From Caldisericum exile AZM16c01 (GTDB taxonomy: Bacteria > Caldisericota > Caldisericia > Caldisericales > Caldisericaceae), in assembly GCF_000284335.1 (NCBI RefSeq), contig NC_017096.1, positions 744,001 through 808,000 of the forward strand: a stretch of 64,000 nucleotides of DNA. Reading direction: 5' to 3'. The translations under genes and the position numbers were made by a program. Below, one piece after another: positions 8,302 through 37,808 of the stretch (position 1 is the stretch's first letter; each line of letters opens with the position of its first letter). The notes under the pieces were generated by a model. The model searched no databases. It saw nothing but the letters and a program-made list of their open reading frames with translations, and was not told where the DNA came from.

Positions 8302-9102
8302 TCATTTTCTAAAATTCCAATCTACTGTATTATATTTATTTTTGTATAAATCGGATGCAATTTTTAACTCATCGTCTGTTAATGTACTTTCAATTATTTC
8401 TTCTTCCAGAACTTCCTCCATGCCTTTTTTAAGTGCCTCCTTAATTTCATTGAAGCCTACTTCTCTTTTTAATTCATCAGAAAGCGACGAAATTTTTAAT
8501 TTTCCAACTTCAGTAAGTTTTCTACGTGCTTCTTCACTTAATCTAAAGCATCTGAAAATTTCATCAATGTTAACTTTATATAAAATAGAGCCGTGCTGTA
8601 ATAAGCCAAATTTATTTCTCATCTGAGCAGAACCCACTACTTTTTTCCCATTCATCAATATATCAGAGAATGTTGGAGACGCAAAGCATGAAGGACTTGA
8701 TATTTCTCTGTCTTCGCTTTTAGAAAAATCTGCATCTCCTCCAAGAATTTTAATTGCATTGATTATTCCTTTAGAAAGAAAACGAAATGATTCAAGCAAA
8801 TTCATTTCAAGAATTTTATTTGGATAGGCAATAGTAATGCTATAGGTAAGCTCCTTGTCATGTAGAACCGCCCTTCCTCCCGTTGGTCTTCTTACGAAGT
8901 CAAATCCTAACGTTTTAAGGTTTTCGAAATCAACCTCTTTCTCTGCACTTTGGAAATATCCTATTGAAAGTGTTGGTGGATAAAATTCATAAACTCTTAA
9001 AACGGGTGGTGTACCAAATGTTGCTTGTGCAATTAGAAGTGCTTCATCTATCGCCATATTCATGGCACCGTTATTTTTACCTGTGTTTATAAATCTATAC
9101 AT
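8302..9102 (-). CDS. octanoyltransferase LipM-like (lipoate/biotin ligase family)
   Basis: 266-aa protein of the BPL/LplA/LipB superfamily. RRPTGGRAVLHDKELTYS at 71-88 is the family lipoyl/octanoyl-binding core. K153/K154 and GSAQ at 157-160, then LLQHGSIL, complete the active site. Cys139, in SPSCFASP, is at the place of the catalytic Cys of LipM-type octanoyl-[ACP]:protein transferases, which argues for LipM over an ATP-using LplA; LplA remains possible. It would attach octanoyl groups to GcvH or dehydrogenase E2 proteins for later lipoate synthesis. It is the first gene of the minus-strand operon. No SD precedes the ATG; a -10 box ends 8 nt upstream, so its mRNA may be leaderless. Confidence 0.82.
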   Translation of the reverse strand: MYRFINTGKNNGAMNMAIDEALLIAQATFGTPPVLRVYEFYPPTLSIGYFQSAEKEVDFENLKTLGFDFVRRPTGGRAVLHDKELTYSITIAYPNKILEMNLLESFRFLSKGIINAIKILGGDADFSKSEDREISSPSCFASPTFSDILMNGKKVVGSAQMRNKFGLLQHGSILYKVNIDEIFRCFRLSEEARRKLTEVGKLKISSLSDELKREVGFNEIKEALKKGMEEVLEEEIIESTLTDDELKIASDLYKNKYNTVDWNFRK

Positions 9103-9110
9103 ACTTTAAA

Positions 9111-9139
9111 ATTTTATCAGAATTTAACATTTAACGCAA
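9111..9139 (-). promoter_or_regulatory. promoter for the lipM operon (predicted leaderless)
   Basis: On the minus strand, TTGCGT (9139-9134), 17-nt spacer, TAAAAT (9116-9111). Only 8 nt separate the -10 from the lipM ATG at 9102, so the expected start of transcription lies within a few bases of the start codon. No SD is present in those 8 nt. Confidence 0.6.
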
Positions 9140-9151
9140 GTTTTGAAAAAG

Positions 9152-9180
9152 TTGTTAAGAAGTCCTTTTTAGATTAAAAT
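9152..9180 (+). promoter_or_regulatory. promoter for deoB-recG-rsmD
   Basis: TTGTTA (9152-9157), 17-nt spacer, TAAAAT (9175-9180). Transcription would begin near 9187, leaving a leader of about 26 nt that contains the SD GGAGG before the deoB ATG at 9214. It is back-to-back with, but not overlapping, the lipM promoter. Confidence 0.55.
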
Positions 9181-9213
9181 ATTATAAAATTGGGTTAATT
9201 ATGGAGGTAAAGA

Positions 9214-10383
9214 ATGGAAATTAAAAGAGTAATTATTTTAGTGCTTGATAGTGTAGGAGCAGGAGAAGCAGAAGATGCAATTGAATATGGAGATTGGGGC
9301 GCAAATACCCTTTTACATACGCTTCAATACAATCCTGATATACAATTGCCAAATCTCGAAAAACTCGGTTTAAGAGGTGTTATCTTTAATGAGGATGGAA
9401 ACTATATTGGTTCTTATGGACGACTAAGAGAAAATTCTAAAGGGAAAGACTCTATAAGTGGTCATTGGGAGATGGCTGGTGTAATCTTGAAAAAGGCGTT
9501 TCCAACTTATCCAAATGGTTTTCCTAAGAATGTAATAGAAAAGTTTGAAAGACTTACAGGTAAAAAAGCCCTTGGGAATAAGCCTGCTTCTGGTACGGAA
9601 ATAATAAAAGAATATTACGAGGAACACAGAAGAACTGGAAATCCAATAGTTTATACTTCAGCAGATTCAGTTTTTCAAATTGCTGCCCATAAAGACGTGA
9701 TTCCACTTGACGAACTATATAGGATGTGCGAAATAGCAAGATATGAGGTTTGTGTTGGAGAACATGAGGTTGCGAGAGTTATTGCAAGACCGTTTATTGG
9801 AACGCCTGAAACTGGTTTTGTAAGGACATCAGAGAGAAGAGACTATGCAGTTAAACCACCAAATAAAACGGTTCTTGACCTTGTAAAGGAGAAAGGATTG
9901 AATGTAGTTGGTATCGGAAAGATTCATGATCTCTTTGCAGGTGTAGGACTCACAGAAAGTATCCACACCGAAAATAATATAGATGGTCTCGAAAAGACAA
10001 TCCAAGAGATTTCTAAAGATTACAATGGTATCATATTTACAAATCTTGTCGAGTTCGATGCAAATTGGGGTCACAGGAGAGACTTCAAGGCTTATGGAAA
10101 AGGTTTAAAGGATGTAGATGATAGACTTCCACAAATTATAAATACAATGAAACCTTATGATATGTTAATAATTACAGCAGATCATGGATGCGATCCAACT
10201 TTCAAAGCGCATACCGACCATACACGAGAATTTACTCCGCTAATTGTATACGGTGAACACATTAGACCAAATATTAATCTCGGTTTGAGACAAAGTATCT
10301 CTGATATCTCTGCAACTATATCAGAGATTTTCAATGTTGAACGTATTAACGGAACAAGTTTCATTAATCTTATTTATAAATGA
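9214..10383 (+). CDS. deoB: phosphopentomutase
   Basis: Interconverts ribose/deoxyribose 1-phosphate and 5-phosphate, linking nucleoside breakdown to pentose metabolism. The 389-aa protein is an alkaline-phosphatase superfamily member: LDSVGAGEAEDA near 11-22, PASGTEI, YTSADSVFQIAAH, EFDANWGHRRD, and ITADHGCDPTFKAHTDHTRE near the C-terminus supply the Mn ligands. At the catalytic site, GKDSISGHWE (77-86) carries Ser80 where the Bacillus cereus enzyme has the phosphoacceptor Thr85. SD GGAGG is 6-7 nt before the ATG. First gene of an operon with recG and rsmD. Confidence 0.95.
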   Translation: MEIKRVIILVLDSVGAGEAEDAIEYGDWGANTLLHTLQYNPDIQLPNLEKLGLRGVIFNEDGNYIGSYGRLRENSKGKDSISGHWEMAGVILKKAFPTYPNGFPKNVIEKFERLTGKKALGNKPASGTEIIKEYYEEHRRTGNPIVYTSADSVFQIAAHKDVIPLDELYRMCEIARYEVCVGEHEVARVIARPFIGTPETGFVRTSERRDYAVKPPNKTVLDLVKEKGLNVVGIGKIHDLFAGVGLTESIHTENNIDGLEKTIQEISKDYNGIIFTNLVEFDANWGHRRDFKAYGKGLKDVDDRLPQIINTMKPYDMLIITADHGCDPTFKAHTDHTREFTPLIVYGEHIRPNINLGLRQSISDISATISEIFNVERINGTSFINLIYK

Positions 10384-12752
10384 ATGTTGATAAATTAAAA
10401 AAACTTCTCTATCTTGAAGGGAGAAGAGGTTATAAAAATGATTCCGTAATTGGTGGGTTTGACAGGTTTGTAATCGATTATATTAATAAAGTTTTCGAAA
10501 AAGGAGACGAACAATTAGCTTATTTATTCAAAGATTATGGAGAGAAAACTCCTGAGGAAAGAAAGGTTATAATTGAACGTGCCTTAAAAATTTTAGATGA
10601 TAATGAAATGGCAGTTATAGATGAGCCAAGCCAAACTGAGATTCAAAAAGTTAAATCTTTAGCAGGTAAAAATGAAACTCGGATAAAACTTTCTGAATTG
10701 TTTACTCCAGTTCAGTTTGTAAAAGGCATTGGTCCAGAACTTGCTAAGAAACTGAAGAAGATAGGAGTTGAAACTGTCTATGATTTTCTTTATTATTTCC
10801 CAAAGGCATACCTTGATCTAAGAAACATTAGGAAAATTTTTTCTCTAAAAAATGGTGAAACTGTCTTATTGAAGGTTAAAATTATTTCTATCCAGGAGAG
10901 AAAAGGAAAACTAAATATTTTTTCTGTTTTAGGGACTGACGGAACTGGATACATTACTGCAACATGGTTCAATCAGCCATATCTTAAGAATATTTTTAAA
11001 GAGGGGATGGAGGTTTTTTTGTTTGGAAAAGTGCAATTTGCATATGGCAAATGGGAGATGCCATCACCTGAGTATGAAATTCCTCAAGATGGAAAAGAAC
11101 TTGTGCATACCCTCAGGATCACCCCTCTTTACCCCTTAACAGAAGGACTAAGCCAAAAAATATTGCGCAATAAAACACTTAATCTAATTGAAAATGTTGG
11201 GAAGAAAATTTTTGATTATTTAGATGAGGAGATTATTAAAAGAAGAAATTTAGTATCTTTAGATTATGCTATTTCAAACGTACACTTTCCGGAAAGTTTT
11301 GACGCATTAAAGAAAGCAAAAGAAAGGATTATTTTTGATGAATTATTTGGACTTCAGTATATATTAAGTAAAAGGAAACATGTAATAGAAGAAAGTGATG
11401 GTTATGTTTTTGATGTAAAAGAGGAATATGTTTCTGAATTTTATAAACTTCTCCCATTCGAACTTACAAGCGACCAAAAGAAGGTTATGGGAGAGATTCT
11501 AAACGACCTTAAATCCTCGCACCCAATGAATAGATTGTTGCATGGTGATGTTGGATCTGGAAAAACTATAGTAGCACTTTTCTCAATGTTTATTTCTTAT
11601 AAGAATGGTTTTCAATCTGCCATGATGAGTCCGACGGAGATTCTTGCGGAACAAACATATAAAACTGCTGAATCACTTTTTAAAGGAACTCCTATAAGGA
11701 TTGCCCTATTGACTTCGAGCACTAAAAATAGTGCAAGAAAGAAGATTCTTCAAGGACTTATAAACCATGATATAGACGTGATTTTCGGCACCCATGCCCT
11801 TATTGAGGAGGGTGTCCAGTTTAAAAAACTCGGACTCGTTGTAGTAGACGAACAGCACCGTTTTGGTGTAATACAGAGAAGTTTATTGAAGGACAAAGCA
11901 ATTATACCTCATACACTAGTAATGAGTGCAACACCAATTCCAAGGACATTAGCACTAACACTGTATGGTGACCTTGATGTTAGTTCCATAAAAGAGTTAC
12001 CAAAAGGAAGATTGCCAATTATAACAAAAGTTTTCTATAGGAACGAAGATATTGCATATAAACTTGTAAGAGAGGAATTAGATAAAGGACATAAGGCTTA
12101 TGTAGTATGTCCTTTGATTGAGGACTCAGAAAGCCTTGATGCGCAATCAGTTGAAACTGTCTTTGAAACTCTTTCTCAAACACATCTTAAAGGTTACAAA
12201 ATAGGAAAGCTCCATGGAGGAATGTCTTCAATAGAAAAGGCGGAGATTATGGAAAATTTTAAGAATGGGGATCTGCAAGTACTTGTTTCAACGACAGTGG
12301 TTGAAGTTGGCGTGGACGTAAAAGATGCGACAGTGATAGTAGTAGAAGATGCAGATCGATTTGGTCTTGCAACATTACATCAACTAAGAGGAAGAGTGGG
12401 AAGAAGTAATCTACAATCTTATTGTCTTCTTATAACACGTAATCCATCTAAGGATGCTATTGAAAGATTGAATGTTCTTGAAAAAACAAATAATGGGTTT
12501 GAAGTTGCCGAGTATGATCTGAAACTACGTGGTCCAGGTGAAATTCTTGGTAAAAGACAATCTGGGCTACCAGACTTTAAATTGACAACGCTCATTGGGG
12601 AAACTGATATGAGAATACTTGAAATGGCAAGAGAAGAAGCAATTAATTTACTAAAAGGGAAAACAAAATACGATCCCGAAAAACTACAAGAATTTCATAG
12701 GTTAATTCAAATAAACTATAAGGAAAAAATACCCTTTATTGAGGTTGCGTAA
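10380..12752 (+). CDS. recG: ATP-dependent DNA helicase RecG
   Basis: Branch-migrating helicase that reverses stalled forks and processes Holliday junctions. The 790-aa protein is longer than the E. coli form because of an N-terminal extension of about 105 residues, a feature also known in Thermotoga RecG. The wedge/OB region starts with VKGIGPELAKKL (114-125) and runs to about 290. Walker A is at 389-396 (GDVGSGKT), the DEQH box at 490-493 (followed by RFGVIQR), and motif VI is QLRGRVGRS. The ATG overlaps the deoB stop (ATGA). Confidence 0.96.
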   Translation: MNVDKLKKLLYLEGRRGYKNDSVIGGFDRFVIDYINKVFEKGDEQLAYLFKDYGEKTPEERKVIIERALKILDDNEMAVIDEPSQTEIQKVKSLAGKNETRIKLSELFTPVQFVKGIGPELAKKLKKIGVETVYDFLYYFPKAYLDLRNIRKIFSLKNGETVLLKVKIISIQERKGKLNIFSVLGTDGTGYITATWFNQPYLKNIFKEGMEVFLFGKVQFAYGKWEMPSPEYEIPQDGKELVHTLRITPLYPLTEGLSQKILRNKTLNLIENVGKKIFDYLDEEIIKRRNLVSLDYAISNVHFPESFDALKKAKERIIFDELFGLQYILSKRKHVIEESDGYVFDVKEEYVSEFYKLLPFELTSDQKKVMGEILNDLKSSHPMNRLLHGDVGSGKTIVALFSMFISYKNGFQSAMMSPTEILAEQTYKTAESLFKGTPIRIALLTSSTKNSARKKILQGLINHDIDVIFGTHALIEEGVQFKKLGLVVVDEQHRFGVIQRSLLKDKAIIPHTLVMSATPIPRTLALTLYGDLDVSSIKELPKGRLPIITKVFYRNEDIAYKLVREELDKGHKAYVVCPLIEDSESLDAQSVETVFETLSQTHLKGYKIGKLHGGMSSIEKAEIMENFKNGDLQVLVSTTVVEVGVDVKDATVIVVEDADRFGLATLHQLRGRVGRSNLQSYCLLITRNPSKDAIERLNVLEKTNNGFEVAEYDLKLRGPGEILGKRQSGLPDFKLTTLIGETDMRILEMAREEAINLLKGKTKYDPEKLQEFHRLIQINYKEKIPFIEVA

Positions 12753-13313
12753 ATGAGAATTGTATCAGGAAAATTCAAGGGAATGGAAATTATTTCACCT
12801 CCAAGAAATCTTGAACTTAGACCAACAAGTGATAGAGTAAGAGAAGCAATTTTTGATGTTATTCGATTTGATATTACTGATAAAGTTTTTCTCGATTTGT
12901 TTGCTGGATCTGGAGCCGTTGGTATAGAGGCAGTAAGCGAAGGAGCAAAATTTGTTTATTTTGTAGAAAATAATAAAAAAGCAGTTGATGTGATAAAGAA
13001 AAACATTGCAAAGTTTGGAATAAGAGAGCAGTGTAAAATTTTAGTTCGGGATGTGTTTAAATTTCTTTCTGATCCTCAATTAGAAAGAGAGGTAGATTTT
13101 ATTTTTCTTGATCCACCATATAAGACGCACTTTGCAAGCGAAACTCTTGAGACTTTAAAGAATTCATCTATTGTAAAAAAGGGTTCAATTATCATTGCTG
13201 AACACTCAGAAGAAGAATTTTTAAGTGAAGCATATGTTGGTAAAGTTCTCTTAAGTAAGTTTAAAGAAAAAAGATACGGCAAAATAGTGGTTTCTTATTT
13301 TATAAGGGCGTAA
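12753..13313 (+). CDS. rsmD: 16S rRNA (guanine966-N2)-methyltransferase RsmD
   Basis: SAM-dependent methylation of G966 of 16S rRNA (E. coli numbering). 186 aa, usual length. The N-terminus MRIVSGKFKG and LRPTSDRVREAIFD are typical of RsmD. The SAM site is DLFAGSGAVGIEA and the catalytic motif is DPPY in FLDPPYKTHFASE. The ATG directly follows the recG stop codon. In many bacteria coaD follows rsmD; here the next gene is a convergent small membrane protein, 2 nt away. Confidence 0.93.
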   Translation: MRIVSGKFKGMEIISPPRNLELRPTSDRVREAIFDVIRFDITDKVFLDLFAGSGAVGIEAVSEGAKFVYFVENNKKAVDVIKKNIAKFGIREQCKILVRDVFKFLSDPQLEREVDFIFLDPPYKTHFASETLETLKNSSIVKKGSIIIAEHSEEEFLSEAYVGKVLLSKFKEKRYGKIVVSYFIRA

Positions 13314-13315
13314 TT

Positions 13316-13666
13316 TCAAAGGGTTGGCCGAAATAGTAAATGCAGTAAAATCATAATTAAGTAAATGAAAATACCGGTTGTAAAAAGTAAGGACGAAGCG
13401 TTCATTTCTGGTATTTCTTTTTTGCCTTTTGTGAGAAAATAGAAAATTTTTGAATAGAGCCCTGAAATGTGGCTTAAACTACCTAAATTGCCAAAAGTAA
13501 GGGCGGCGCTTGCAATTATAAAAACGCTTCCCTCCATAAAATAAATGTTTAGTAAGTTTATAAGGTTAAATCTACTGACAGCGTATACAAAAGGAATCGT
13601 TATTGAGGTTGTAGTGACTGCAACCAAAAAACTCAAAAATACGATCCGAAATATTTGTTTAATCAT
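13316..13666 (-). CDS. small membrane protein of unknown function
   Basis: 116 aa from ATG 13666; a TTG at 13669 is in frame just before it. Three hydrophobic segments are visible at about 6-30, 43-62 and 90-112, with a short loop of charged residues (TKGKKEIPEM) between the second and third. No family recognised. A strong divergent promoter lies 8 nt upstream and there is no SD, so translation probably starts on a leaderless mRNA. Its 3' end lies 2 nt from the rsmD stop. Confidence 0.6.
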   Translation of the reverse strand: MIKQIFRIVFLSFLVAVTTTSITIPFVYAVSRFNLINLLNIYFMEGSVFIIASAALTFGNLGSLSHISGLYSKIFYFLTKGKKEIPEMNASSLLFTTGIFIYLIMILLHLLFRPTL

Positions 13667-13682
13667 CAAAATATATTATACT
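13655..13682 (+). promoter_or_regulatory. promoter for the moeA-MFS operon
   Basis: TTGTTT (13655-13660), 16-nt spacer, TATACT (13677-13682). Transcription would start near 13689, leaving about 22 nt of leader that carries the SD AAGGAAGG before ATG 13712. Its -10 shares bases with the -10 of the divergent promoter on the other strand. Confidence 0.55.
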
Positions 13683-13702
13683 TCTAATAGTTTAATTTTC
13701 AA
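13675..13702 (-). promoter_or_regulatory. promoter for the 116-aa membrane protein (predicted leaderless)
   Basis: On the minus strand, TTGAAA (13702-13697), 16-nt spacer, TATAAT (13680-13675), then 8 nt to ATG 13666. The consensus -10 and good -35 make this one of the clearest promoters in the window. Its -35 covers part of the SD of the divergent moeA gene. Confidence 0.7.
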
Positions 13703-13711
13703 GGAAGGAAT

Positions 13712-15622
13712 ATGGGTGAGATTTATTTAAAAAAAGAAACACTTAAAAATGCACTAAAACTTTTTAAAGATTCACTAAGAAACAAAAAGGTTTTTAAGAA
13801 ATTGAAAGAGGAAGAAATATCAGTCTATGAAAGTCTTGGAAGAATTACTTCAAGGCCTGTTATTGCAAAAATTTCCAATCCGTTTTTTAATGCTTCCGCA
13901 GTTGACGGTTTTGCACTTAAATCTCATGAAACTGCCAATTCAACCATAAATAATCCGAAAATTTTCAAGATTGGTCTCGATGCGATTCCTGTAAATACTG
14001 GTGACCCAATAAATTTTCCATTTGATTGTGTTGCAATGATTGAAGATGTCGAAGTAAATGGCGACTTTGTAAAAATTTTTTCTCCCTTGCATATATACGA
14101 AAATGTTCGAGTAATTGGTGAAGATTTTGCAAAAGGTGAGATTGTTATACCAATTTATGAAAAAATTACACCTGCTCATATTGGAGTCTTAATATCCTCG
14201 TACAACGAAAAAGTCTATGTATTTGAAAAACCCAAAGTTCTCATTATGGCCACAGGTGAGGAAGTTAAAAGATTAGGGGAAGATCTTAAAGTTGGAGATG
14301 TTATTGATTCAAATTCCTACATGATTTCTTCTATATTAAAAGAGTATGGAGCAGACCCATATATTTTGGAGAAGGTACTTCCAAATAATTTTGAGGTACT
14401 TAAAAATGAAATAGAAAAAGCATCACAGAACTATCACATGATTATCGTAATTGGAGGATCAGCAAAGGGAAGAAAAGACCTGATATCGGATGTTTTCGAA
14501 AGTTTTTCCGAAGTTCTCTTCCATGGGCTTACAATACAACCAGGTAAACCGCTTGTGATTGGTTTTTACGGTGATGTTCCCCTTGTTGGATCCCCAGGTT
14601 TTCCGGTCTCATCTTATATAGATGCAAAGATTTTTCTTAAAGTTGCAATTGAAGAATTTACTGGTATTTCTTTGGATTTGAAAAGAAAAATTATAGCAAC
14701 TATTAAAAGGGATATTCCCTCTTCTTTAGGCGTGGAAGAATTTGTAAGAGTAAAGTTAAATGATATTAATGGCGAAGTGATTTGTGTACCCTTAAAGAGA
14801 GGTGCAGCGAACCTTACGAGCGTAGTAAAGGGAGATGGGCTATTAAGAATAGAGGAAAATAGTGAAGGAATTATTGCAGGTTCAAAGGTAGAAATTGAAC
14901 TTTTAAAAAGCGAGTATGATATTCTTTCACAACTTTTATTTATTGGAAGTAACGATCCACTTCTTGAATACATTTTAAACATGATTCGAAAAGAAAATCC
15001 TCAATTTAAATTTGGTATAATAAATGTTGGAAGCTTAGGAGGACTTTTGTCACTTGCGAGAGGTGAAACTATTATTACATCGATTCACTTGTTTGATAGT
15101 GAGACGCAAACTTACAATACGCCATATCTCAAAAAGTACCTTGAAGAAAATTCGTATTTACGAATTCATCTATTTAACAGAAATCAGGGCTTAGTTGTTC
15201 AAAAAGGAAATCCCAAAAATATTAGGTCGCTTAAAGATTTAGAAAGAGAAGATTTGAAATTTATAAATAGACAAAAAGGATCGGGAACAAGAATTTATTT
15301 CGATTACCTTCTTTCTCAAAATGGCATCGAAAAGGAAAAAGTAAAAGGCTACGATTTAGAGGAAACAACTCATCTGGGTGTTGCTAATGCGGTGAAGGAA
15401 GGTATTGTTGACTGTGGAATGGGAATCGAATATGTTGCAAGACTTTTTGATCTTGATTTTATAAAGTTGGGAGAAGAGGAGTATGAAATTATAATAAGCA
15501 AGAATTTTCTTGAGGACCACCGAATCAATTTTGTCCTGAAGCAATTTAATGCACTAAATCTCGAAGTTCTTATGAAAAGTTTCGAAGGCTACAAATGGGT
15601 TAATAAAGTAAGGGAGGTATAA
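13712..15622 (+). CDS. moeA: molybdopterin molybdotransferase MoeA fused to a periplasmic-binding-protein-like domain
   Basis: 636 aa, about 230 longer than a plain MoeA. Residues about 1-405 are MoeA: NPFFNASAVDGFALKS, TGEEVKRLG, VGDVIDSNSYMI, VIGGSAKGRKDLISD and PLVGSPGFPVSSY cover the substrate and metal-insertion sites. Residues about 425-615 match the PBP-like domain (COG1910 type) often linked to MoeA: NRQKGSGTRIYFDYLL, THLGVANAVKEGIVDCGMG. MoeA inserts molybdate or tungstate into adenylated molybdopterin; the extra domain probably senses or binds a ligand. No other cofactor genes lie in the window. The ATG has an SD (AAGGAAGG) and its own promoter; the MFS gene follows by 4 nt. Confidence 0.9.
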   Translation: MGEIYLKKETLKNALKLFKDSLRNKKVFKKLKEEEISVYESLGRITSRPVIAKISNPFFNASAVDGFALKSHETANSTINNPKIFKIGLDAIPVNTGDPINFPFDCVAMIEDVEVNGDFVKIFSPLHIYENVRVIGEDFAKGEIVIPIYEKITPAHIGVLISSYNEKVYVFEKPKVLIMATGEEVKRLGEDLKVGDVIDSNSYMISSILKEYGADPYILEKVLPNNFEVLKNEIEKASQNYHMIIVIGGSAKGRKDLISDVFESFSEVLFHGLTIQPGKPLVIGFYGDVPLVGSPGFPVSSYIDAKIFLKVAIEEFTGISLDLKRKIIATIKRDIPSSLGVEEFVRVKLNDINGEVICVPLKRGAANLTSVVKGDGLLRIEENSEGIIAGSKVEIELLKSEYDILSQLLFIGSNDPLLEYILNMIRKENPQFKFGIINVGSLGGLLSLARGETIITSIHLFDSETQTYNTPYLKKYLEENSYLRIHLFNRNQGLVVQKGNPKNIRSLKDLEREDLKFINRQKGSGTRIYFDYLLSQNGIEKEKVKGYDLEETTHLGVANAVKEGIVDCGMGIEYVARLFDLDFIKLGEEEYEIIISKNFLEDHRINFVLKQFNALNLEVLMKSFEGYKWVNKVREV

Positions 15623-15626
15623 AAAA

Positions 15627-16775
15627 ATGAAAAAAAGACTTAATCCAAATGTAATAATTTTAGGACTTGCTAGTTTCTTTACTGATATTTCTACCGAAAT
15701 GATTACAAAAATTTTGCCGTTGTTTTTGGAATCAATTGGAGCAGGTGGTGCATTTATCGGCGTTATAGAGGGACTCGCTGAAACAATTGCATCTCTTTTG
15801 AAGGTCTTCTCTGGCTATATTTCTGATAAATTTAGAAATAGAAAATGGCTTACGATTTTAGGATATGCAGAATCTACAATTGCCAAAGCTTTTCTTCTTA
15901 TTGTAAATACTCCGGTTGGAGTTCTTATTGTAAGAGCACTCGAACGAATTGGTAAAGGCATTAGAACTGCTCCACGTGATGCGCTAATTGCATCTTACAC
16001 AGATGAAACAAATAGAGGATTTTATTTTGGATTTCACAGAGCCCTTGATACACTTGGTGCAGCACTTGGTCCACTTTTAGGTTTCTGGGTACTCGAGAAA
16101 TTTGGACGGACAAATTACAGAGAAATTTTTAAATTTGCACTGATCCCAGCAGTTGTTGCAGTTATCATTCTCTTTTTCGTTCAAGAAAAAAAGGTTATTG
16201 TTGATTTGAAAAAAAGTAGTGGATTTTTTGCGAAGGCAAAACTTGGTAAAAGGTTTTACTTGTTTTTAGTTGCAATTCTCATTTTTACGCTTGGAAACAG
16301 CTCAGATGCTTTTATTACAATGTATTCAAGCAGTTTGGGAGTTGCATCAACTACAATACTACTAATGTGGACACTTCACAGTTTGATATATGCATTCTTA
16401 TCAACGCCATTGGGAACTTTATCGGATAAAATTGGAAGAAAAACAACCTTGATAATTGGAATGGCAATTTATGGAATAAGTTATTTATTTTTTGCACTAA
16501 CAAAGAGTGGAAATTTTCTTTGGTTCGTTTTTAGCCTTTACGGTGTCTATTATGCAATGTCTGAAGGTATTCAAAAGGCATTTGTTTCGGATTTAGTAAC
16601 GGATAATGAGGTAAGAGGCACTGCATTTGGAATATACAATTTTGCAGTAGGCATAATGGCATTTCCTGCATCTTTGGTTGCAGGTATTCTTTATCAGTTT
16701 ATTGCTCCAAGCATGCCTTTCTACTTTGGCGGAATACTTGCTATTATTGCATCACTTTTGTTGCTTGTTGTTTAA
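15627..16775 (+). CDS. MFS transporter
   Basis: 382 aa, about 12 hydrophobic segments. Typical major-facilitator signatures are present: the loop 2-3 motif GYISDKFRNRKW and its second-half copy GTLSDKIGRKTT. The start is FTDISTEMITKILPLFL, common in a bacterial MFS group annotated only as permeases. Substrate is unknown; being 4 nt after moeA hints at oxyanion or cofactor-linked transport but does not prove it. SD GGGAGG precedes the ATG. The last 24 nt overlap the convergent antiporter gene. Confidence 0.85.
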   Translation: MKKRLNPNVIILGLASFFTDISTEMITKILPLFLESIGAGGAFIGVIEGLAETIASLLKVFSGYISDKFRNRKWLTILGYAESTIAKAFLLIVNTPVGVLIVRALERIGKGIRTAPRDALIASYTDETNRGFYFGFHRALDTLGAALGPLLGFWVLEKFGRTNYREIFKFALIPAVVAVIILFFVQEKKVIVDLKKSSGFFAKAKLGKRFYLFLVAILIFTLGNSSDAFITMYSSSLGVASTTILLMWTLHSLIYAFLSTPLGTLSDKIGRKTTLIIGMAIYGISYLFFALTKSGNFLWFVFSLYGVYYAMSEGIQKAFVSDLVTDNEVRGTAFGIYNFAVGIMAFPASLVAGILYQFIAPSMPFYFGGILAIIASLLLLVV

Positions 16776-35551: not shown

Positions 35552-37256
35552 ATTCTTTTATCGCTTCTTTAATAAAGTTTACTATCTCATTAAAATCCAT
35601 TGTTTTTCGTTCTCCGGTTTTTCTAATTTTTATTTCAAACTTTCCTTCTTTCTTGAATGCTCTACCTACAATTACTTGAAGTGGAATTCCAATTAAATCC
35701 GCATCATTAAATTTTTCCCCTGCACTTAAATCATCTCTATCATCTAAAAGAACTTCTATCCCTTCTTTAACTAAACTTTCATGCAATCGATTGCTTGCAT
35801 TGTTTATTTCTTCATCACTTGTGTTAATAGGTAGAATTTCCACTTTAAATGGTGCAATATTCATTGGCCAAATTATCCCTTTATCGTCATGAAATTTTTC
35901 AATTATTGCTTGCAATGTTCTTCCAACGCCAATACCATAGCAACCCATGATGAAGTGTTTTTCTTTACCATCTGCATCAAGGAATGTGGCATTCATTTTC
36001 TCGGAATATTTTGTTCCCAATTTAAATGTATGCCCTAACTCTATTCCGTTGTATTTTTTTAAAGGTGTGCCACATTTGGGACAGAAATCGCCTTCTTTTA
36101 CAACTCGAATATCTTCTACATAGTTTGGCGTAAAATCTCGATATAGATTAACATTTTTTAAGTGGAATCCATCTTCATTTGCCCCACATATAAAGTTCTT
36201 CATTTTCAAAACTTTTTTATCTACTATAGTTTCAATTGGCGAATTTACTGGACCTATTGCACCTGTATGTGCTTTAAAAATGCTCAATACCTCTTCGTCA
36301 GTTGCTAACTCCAAAGACTTTGCATTAAAGAAGTTCTTTAACTTTACTTCATTTAACTCATCATCTCCACGAATAACCGCAAGTACATATTTGTGATCTA
36401 TCTTGTAGACAAGAGATTTTGCAAGCTTATGCCTGGGTACCTTTAGGAAATCTGAAACTTCTTCAATTGTTTTATTATCAAAAGTGTTTATTTTTTCGAG
36501 AGGCTCTTCGTCTTCTGTCTCCAAAGTTTCCGAGTCCAAAGATTTTGCTGCTTCTATGTTGGCAGCATATCCACATTTGGGACACATTACAAATTCACTT
36601 TCCCCTCCCAACTCAGAAATCACAACAAATTCATGTGAAACTTTACCCCCAATTGCTCCGGAGTCTGCCTCAATAGGAATAACATCAAGATGACACCTTT
36701 TGAAAATTTTAATATAGGCATCATACATCTTTTTATAACTTATTTCTAGGTTCTCTTCTGATGTATCAAAAGAATATGCATCCTTCATAAGGAACTCTCT
36801 TGCTCTCATTAATCCGAAACGTGGTCTAATTTCATCTCTGTATTTAGTTTGTATCTGATAAAATATTTTTGGTAAATCTTTATATGATCGTAATTCTTTT
36901 CTTGCAAGGTCAACTACTGCTTCCTCATGAGTGGGTCCAAGACAAAAGAATCTTCCTTTTCTATCTTTTAATTTAAACATCTCATCTCCGTAAATCTCCC
37001 ATCTACCTGTTTCATCCCACAGTTCCTTTGGCATAATTGCAGGGAAAAGAAGTTCAAGTGCACCTGCGTTATTCATTTCTTCTCTTATTATTTTCTCAAC
37101 ATTCTTTAAAGCAATATACCCAAAAGGAAGATATGAATATACACCTGCTGCCATTTTTCGTATAAGACCAGCTTTTATCATTAACTTATGGCTTTCTATT
37201 TCCGCATCTTGCGGATCTTCTCGTAATGTAGGAAGAAAAAAGTCTTTTATTCTCAT
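35550..37256 (-). CDS. proS: prolyl-tRNA synthetase, bacterial editing type
   Basis: Class II aminoacyl-tRNA synthetase. 568 aa. Motif 1/2 region FLPTLREDPQDAEIESHKLM, RFGLMRAREFLMKDAYSF, then an inserted editing (INS) domain at about 225-400, and a CxxC pair (MCPKCG, FCPKCG) on either side of it. GIGVGRTLQAIIE is motif 3. SD AAAGGAGT is 7 nt before ATG. Monocistronic; convergent with acpP across the terminator. Confidence 0.96.
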   Translation of the reverse strand: MRIKDFFLPTLREDPQDAEIESHKLMIKAGLIRKMAAGVYSYLPFGYIALKNVEKIIREEMNNAGALELLFPAIMPKELWDETGRWEIYGDEMFKLKDRKGRFFCLGPTHEEAVVDLARKELRSYKDLPKIFYQIQTKYRDEIRPRFGLMRAREFLMKDAYSFDTSEENLEISYKKMYDAYIKIFKRCHLDVIPIEADSGAIGGKVSHEFVVISELGGESEFVMCPKCGYAANIEAAKSLDSETLETEDEEPLEKINTFDNKTIEEVSDFLKVPRHKLAKSLVYKIDHKYVLAVIRGDDELNEVKLKNFFNAKSLELATDEEVLSIFKAHTGAIGPVNSPIETIVDKKVLKMKNFICGANEDGFHLKNVNLYRDFTPNYVEDIRVVKEGDFCPKCGTPLKKYNGIELGHTFKLGTKYSEKMNATFLDADGKEKHFIMGCYGIGVGRTLQAIIEKFHDDKGIIWPMNIAPFKVEILPINTSDEEINNASNRLHESLVKEGIEVLLDDRDDLSAGEKFNDADLIGIPLQVIVGRAFKKEGKFEIKIRKTGERKTMDFNEIVNFIKEAIKE

Positions 37257-37285
37257 AAGTTAACTCCTTTCATTTTAATTTCCAT

Positions 37286-37314
37286 ATTATATATATCTTG
37301 CATATTCTTTAAAA
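37286..37314 (-). promoter_or_regulatory. candidate promoter for proS
   Basis: On the minus strand, TATAAT at 37291-37286 with a weak TTTTAA -35 at 37314-37309 (17-nt spacer). A 25-nt leader containing the SD would result. It partly faces the pncC promoter. Confidence 0.4.
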
Positions 37315-37325
37315 TAGTGTAAAAT
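37298..37325 (+). promoter_or_regulatory. promoter for the pncC-pfk operon (predicted leaderless)
   Basis: TTGCAT (37298-37303), 16-nt spacer, TAAAAT (37320-37325), then 9 nt to ATG 37335. There is no SD in the gap. Confidence 0.55.
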
Positions 37326-37334
37326 TTACACAGT

Positions 37335-37808
37335 ATGAGAGATTTATTGCAAAAATTAGTAAATACTCTAAAAGAAAGAAATTTAACTATTGCAACTGCT
37401 GAATCAGTTACAGGTGGACTTGTTGCTAAATCAATAACCGATGTCCCTGGCAGTTCTAAAGTATTTTTAGGCGGGATTATTGCATATTCCCCAAATGCAA
37501 AAGTCAATATATTAAAGATTGACGAAACATTGATTAAAAAATTAGGAACAGTTGATCCTTTAATTGCGGAAATAATGGCCAGAAACGTTAAGGGAATTTT
37601 TGGAGCTGATGTTGGAGTTTCAACTACGGGGATTGCCGGACCAGATTCAATTGAGGGAAAACAAGTTGGCCTTTGCTACGTAGGAATTGTAATAAAGGAT
37701 GAAAATTTTGTTTTTGAAAATAAATTTGAAGGTGATCGTGCTATAATAAGAGAGTATATCACTGAGTTTTTAATTAATAAATTAATTGAAATTTTACAAG
37801 GAGGTTGA
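37335..37808 (+). CDS. pncC: nicotinamide-nucleotide amidase (stand-alone CinA C-domain)
   Basis: Deamidates NMN to nicotinate mononucleotide in NAD recycling. 157 aa: only the CinA C-terminal (PncC) domain, without the N-terminal COG1058 domain. TIATAESVTGGLVAKSITDVPGSS holds the active-site Ser, GTVDPLIAEIMARNV and TTGIAGPDSIEGKQVGLCYVGI follow. ATG has no SD; a promoter lies 9 nt upstream. First gene of the glycolytic operon. Confidence 0.92.
   Translation: MRDLLQKLVNTLKERNLTIATAESVTGGLVAKSITDVPGSSKVFLGGIIAYSPNAKVNILKIDETLIKKLGTVDPLIAEIMARNVKGIFGADVGVSTTGIAGPDSIEGKQVGLCYVGIVIKDENFVFENKFEGDRAIIREYITEFLINKLIEILQGG

Follow-up and report, generated by a model that had tools for sequence, protein, structure and literature searches.

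Two described arrangements come closest to the region between a small membrane-protein gene and moeA in Caldisericum exile. The first is the bidirectional promoter (Warman, Grainger), in which a near-symmetrical -10 element serves both strands between divergent genes. Excerpts of two reports describe such promoters throughout prokaryotes, with transcription starts 7-25 bp apart and a commonest distance of 18 bp (PMC10268837, PMC12825309). At five E. coli examples studied in vitro, basal transcription was too low to bring the two directions into competition, and substantial activation of one direction repressed the other (PMC12825309, same excerpts). The second arrangement is the leaderless gene, which in many bacteria carries TAnnnT as its mark, about 12 bp ahead of the start (PMC3160421, in part), and which accounts for about a third of the genes of D. 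radiodurans, of the Deinococcus-Thermus group (PMC12340547, in part). The main text of these last two papers does not name the Caldisericum lineage. Our literature searches found no paper on Caldisericum exile dealing with leaderless genes and no start-site map, judged by title, among the Caldisericum transcriptome matches listed. For leaderless starts joined with divergent bidirectional promoters, just an archaeon study and a synthetic-biology review were found.

On sequence, the locus described here resembles both systems. As in the published bidirectional promoters, a near-symmetrical -10 is found on both strands between divergent genes, with positions 13677-13680 common to the two opposite hexamers. 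The predicted starts are nominally 21 bp apart, or 23 bp if the minus-strand RNA begins at its ATG, which falls inside the 7-25 bp given in those excerpts. The locus differs in that its starts are predicted from the boxes, that one side is probably leaderless, and that the 2-bp offset of its -10 hexamers goes with a nominal distance of 21 bp and not the commonest 18. As in the TAnnnT leaderless genes of PMC3160421 and PMC12340547, again as far as those excerpts go, 8 nt separate TATAAT from the ATG of the membrane-protein gene, where the longest Shine-Dalgarno-like match is 3 nt; unlike in that class description, a good -35 is also present. The arrangement is thus a common and already described one, of which this locus is one more probable case. 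Its value as a test case is modest, and the genome-wide leaderless signal is the most useful by-product of the analysis.

Gene order and promoter elements

The window, by which we mean the whole 64,000-nt stretch analysed, spans 744001-808000 on one contig of 1,558,103 bases. Features are listed by window position in Table 1.

Table 1. Genes and promoter elements around the divergent start region (window coordinates)
Feature	Position	Strand	Remarks
recG	10380-12752	+	Upstream of moeA, same strand
rsmD	12753-13313	+	Upstream of moeA, same strand
Small membrane-protein gene	13316-13669	-	117 aa from TTG 13669, 116 aa from ATG 13666
Plus -35 TTGTTT (3/6)	13655-13660	+	Within K and Q codons of the membrane-protein gene; identical in G002
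Predicted minus transcription start	13666-13668	-	Predicted from the -10 position; at most about 2 nt from the ATG
Minus -10 TATAAT (6/6)	13675-13680	-	Ends 8 nt before ATG 13666; TATAAT-N8-ATG also in G002
Plus -10 TATACT (5/6)	13677-13682	+	N16 spacer; overlaps minus -10; TATAAT in G002
Predicted plus transcription start	13689	+	Predicted 7 nt past the -10; leader of about 23 nt before moeA
Minus -35 TTGAAA (5/6)	13697-13702	-	N16 spacer; TTGCAA at equal spacing in G002
Likely moeA Shine-Dalgarno site AAGGAAGGA	13701-13709	+	Read from sequence
moeA fused to PBP-like domain	13712-15622	+	636 aa; NF011068 above its cut-off
MFS transporter gene	15627-16775	+	Directly after moeA

A preliminary description had proposed two interlocked promoters, TTGAAA-N16-TATAAT on the minus strand and TTGTTT-N16-TATACT on the plus strand, and every box was found where it had been placed. 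Scored against the consensus, the minus promoter reaches 11/12 and the weak plus promoter 8/12. Their -10 boxes do overlap on opposite strands as claimed, within a nearly palindromic region (ATTATACT in the window, ATTATAAT in the related genome G002). The minus -35 does likewise cover part of the likely moeA Shine-Dalgarno site, namely the first two bases of AAGGAAGGA. Between 13600 and 13760, the plus promoter is the sole site of at least 8/12 that points to moeA. A palindrome at 13722-13735 is located within moeA itself.

For the membrane-protein gene, ATG 13666 is the likelier start than the in-frame TTG 13669, from which the minus -10 is separated by 5 nt. The protein has no Pfam or NCBIfam family match, and the structural prediction for it is of low quality, with four helices at a mean pLDDT of 57.3. 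For the copy in G002, DUF6498 was matched at E 0.0018, short of the curated cut-off, and two further matches were weaker.

Comparison with related genomes

Five genomes of the genus were compared at the DNA level, and the membrane-protein region matched in G000 and G002 alone; G001 and G003 are about 55% complete, such that absence there says little. At the protein level, G002, which belongs to the same genus, was the sole strong match besides the window's own genome among 54 genomes of the phylum. In a 41-genome search, G039 and G022 matched weakly in addition to G000 and G002. A two-row profile run against the 54 genomes weakly matched G007, where E was 9e-4 and the length similar, as well as G039, G050 and G021 (E 0.006-0.009). 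None of the 145 matches from a pattern search of genome contigs for the membrane protein was confirmed. The G007 match (L060:1462-1848, E 9e-4) covers most of the length and lies beside an opposite-strand gene, which by its appearance we take to be dprA.

The proteins of the window and G002 are 52% identical. Across 116 codons, the two genes differ at 45 first, 23 second and 74 third positions, a distribution by which the membrane-protein gene is, as judged from sequence, a real protein-coding gene. The order rsmD - membrane-protein gene - moeA is also present in G002, and comparison of the intergenic sequence, which the preliminary description had called for, revealed the same divergent layout with overlapping -10s. 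Toward the membrane-protein gene, G002 has TTGCAA-16-TATAAT (10/12), and toward moeA it has TTGTTT-16-TATAAT (9/12). The 2-bp offset between the -10s, both 16-nt spacers and the 8 nt from -10 to ATG are all kept. This conservation is seen in one relative, the sole one with a strong match to the gene.

Some details of the comparison weigh against the plus promoter. Only two positions of the plus -10 extend beyond the minus -10, and one of these is kept in G002 (T13682) while 13681 differs. Conservation of TTGTTT is confounded, as the hexamer sits in codons of the membrane-protein gene. The four codons I-K-Q-I, of which K-Q form the plus -35, are all identical to those of G002 (4/4), compared with 18 of 54 for later conserved residues. 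In moeA, codons were identical at 19/33 conserved K, 2/4 conserved Q and 25/48 conserved I residues, and from these values the chance of finding all four I-K-Q-I codons identical is about 8%, so that their identity speaks weakly for the plus promoter.

The membrane-protein gene had no match in G004, where rsmD ends 76 bp before moeA. There, moeA has TATAAT 7 nt before its ATG (L037, 4051-4064) and looks leaderless. The moeA orthologs of the window and G002, unlike that of G004, have Shine-Dalgarno-like sites and predicted leaders. On these sequences, moeA seems to change between leaderless and Shine-Dalgarno-led starts within the genus.

The probable leaderless start and its genomic background

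Given the 8 nt between the minus -10 and ATG 13666, the mRNA of the membrane-protein gene is probably leaderless, a point that the preliminary description had missed. The first T of this -10 (13680) is 14 bp from the ATG, in keeping with the TAnnnT mark at about 12 bp.

We looked for the same signal in a genome sample of 424 kb, consisting of the window and 18 further stretches (L041-L058). Each open frame of at least 100 aa was by rule given its first ATG as gene start, so that some starts are wrong. With starts so defined, -10-like hexamers were enriched 5-10 nt before the first ATG, with 47 hits among 363 genes. The profile rose again, more broadly, from about 15 nt, which fits leadered promoters. 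At 8 genes the first ATG followed a -10-like hexamer with no gap (0 nt), compared with 0.46% of internal ATGs; these are perhaps wrong starts.

A match of at least 5/6 to TAnnnT stood 5-10 nt before the first ATG in 42 of the 363 genes, including the membrane-protein gene; four of the 42 are copies with identical upstream sequence. This class differed from the remaining genes in its ribosome-binding signals. With duplicates included, Shine-Dalgarno-like matches of at least 5 nt preceded 2 of the 42 genes and 181 of the 321 others, and matches of at least 4 nt preceded 13 and 255, respectively (P 5e-10). A -35 of at least 4/6 accompanied 17 of the 42, in comparison to 16.2% of 1675 control sites inside genes. 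After removal of duplicates, the 5-10 nt signal was present at 39 of 359 genes and at 45 of 1742 internal ATGs, and exact TATAAT at this distance preceded 19 genes and 3 internal ATGs. The neighbouring bins held 25 (11-16 nt) and 34 (17-22 nt) in the same count. These values suggest that roughly one gene in ten of the genome sample may be leaderless, and by this measure leaderless starts look frequent in this genome.

Two observations from the sample are recorded separately. A 1671-base open frame occurs four times with the same upstream sequence (L042, L045, L047, L058) and is perhaps a mobile element. At L051:5100-6332, a divergent pair has leaderless-type -10s on both genes, with apparently one palindromic TTGCAA as the -35 both ways.

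Proposed two-way transcription and its alternatives

We consider a working two-way promoter of the published kind, serving both the membrane-protein gene and moeA, to be the best reading of the locus and a reasonably probable one. It is favoured because G002 repeats the layout, the 16-nt spacers and the distance from -10 to ATG. Under this model, the housekeeping RNA polymerase would bind the strong minus promoter, and the leaderless membrane-protein mRNA would begin at most about 2 nt from ATG 13666. The near-palindromic -10 would let the same polymerase also bind in the opposite direction, relying on a poor -35 located in the opening codons of the membrane-protein gene. The moeA transcript would then start near 13689, with a leader of about 23 nt that includes the Shine-Dalgarno site. 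Each binding direction would exclude the other at that instant, and at ordinary strengths both genes would be expressed together and independently. Points against this reading include the match of the plus -35 at 3/6, the nominal start-to-start distance of 21 bp where 18 bp is commonest, and the presence of the gene in one relative.

Of the two directions in the model, the plus one is less certain, and read-through from rsmD is its main rival. In this alternative, the minus promoter alone is effective, and the plus boxes arise as a side effect of a -10 that is nearly palindromic in AT-rich DNA. Most moeA transcription would then come from polymerases reading through recG and rsmD, which lie upstream on its strand, or from a start elsewhere. 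Among 5000 dinucleotide shuffles of 13640-13720 (25.9% GC), 1083 (22%) contained overlapping opposite -10s with both promoters at least 8/12. A promoter of at least 11/12 appeared in 45, and one of 11/12 overlapped by an opposite promoter of at least 8/12 in 18. The minus promoter is above chance, and its overlapping plus partner adds little.

Real promoter-like sequences of the genome led to the same point. Of 259 promoter-like sites of at least 10/12 in the 424-kb sample, 113 had an opposite-strand overlapping partner of at least 8/12. Such partners are frequent because an AT in front of TATAAT gives a sequence identical to its reverse complement. We compared divergent and tandem genes whose best site 3-60 nt upstream was at least 10/12. 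Partners of at least 8/12 were about as common at tandem neighbours (8/18) as at divergent ones (10/19; Fisher P 0.75), and partners of at least 9/12 were fewer at divergent genes (2/19, compared with 4/18). Overlapping -10s (9/12 with at least 8/12) occurred in 16 of 32 divergent pairs, this pair included, against 6.2 expected from shuffles. We dropped this excess as evidence of specific pairing, given that the tandem-gene control revealed no clear difference; that control is small and was preferred since shuffles contain no real promoters. The -10 overlap is therefore ordinary, as expected for a near-palindromic -10 in AT-rich DNA.

Several features nonetheless argue against the plus boxes being a mere by-product. 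The plus layout recurs in G002 with a score of 9/12 and an equal spacer, it is the sole candidate of its strength toward moeA in the interval given above, and it stands at a fitting distance from the Shine-Dalgarno site. In G004, moreover, moeA has its own -10 despite the proximity of rsmD upstream. On balance, we regard this rival as unlikely, yet serious enough to weigh.

If the two-way promoter is accepted, it may be read more broadly, and more tentatively, as a compact module in which the same stretch of about 50 bp provides one gene with its leaderless start and opening codons and the gene on the other strand with its -35 and -10. Selection would then act jointly on the protein, the start of translation and both promoters, in a lineage where leaderless starts would be regular. 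We hold this extension to be possible, with some doubt. A leaderless start leaves the -35 of the opposite promoter in coding sequence, where synonymous constraint is predicted and can be checked.

The preliminary description had gone further and suggested that the membrane protein and the molybdenum cofactor operon may alternate in their expression. Such a regulatory switch, which might follow the supply of molybdate or tungstate, would operate by polymerase exclusion or by a regulator at the common -10. Judging from the overlapping footprints, two polymerases can hardly occupy these sites together, so that binding in the two directions would be mutually exclusive. According to the excerpts of PMC12825309, activating one direction can also repress the other at the E. 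coli examples. Alternation is nevertheless not implied, because basal activity at the five tested promoters was too low for competition (PMC12825309, same excerpts). Sequences that might bind a regulator were sought at the locus itself. No inverted repeat of at least 8 nt was found between the membrane-protein gene and moeA, and RNA families gave no match in 12700-14200 at E up to 1. A direct repeat flanks the -10s (13652-13669 and 13685-13702, 14/18) and was reached by 10 of 1000 shuffles. We rejected it as an operator, as the best repeat of the G002 equivalent (12/18) is at shuffle level, being reached by 877 of 1000. What stands of the promoter-pair interpretation is the divergent genes and their overlapping -10s, kept in one related species; the alternation is not supported, and we consider a switch of either kind very improbable.

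The proposed tie to molybdenum fared no better. No cofactor-synthesis genes adjoin moeA, whose neighbours are recG, rsmD and the MFS gene, and the membrane protein has no family link to molybdenum. What had been called a molybdenum cofactor operon is moeA followed by the MFS gene, with recG and rsmD upstream. The sole PF06463 (moaA type) match in the genome is at C1:1111983, about 350 kb from moeA, and a second moeA-like match is at 836,801. As moeA is without cofactor-synthesis neighbours, a link of the promoter pair to molybdate is speculation.

A last alternative is that all the boxes arose by chance in AT-rich DNA and serve as promoters in neither direction. A general scan agrees with it, in that 2.5 kb held 9 promoter-like sites where shuffles would give 9.4. 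The alternative is hardly credible for the minus site, which alone reached 11/12 in that scan (the plus site fell under its cut-off), is of a strength rare in shuffles, is kept in G002 at equal distance to the ATG and is placed in accord with the leaderless signal of the genome.

Overlapping opposite -10 candidates were also seen at two other divergent gene pairs of the window, at 9102-9214 (9/12 with 8/12) and 37256-37335 (10/12 with 8/12).
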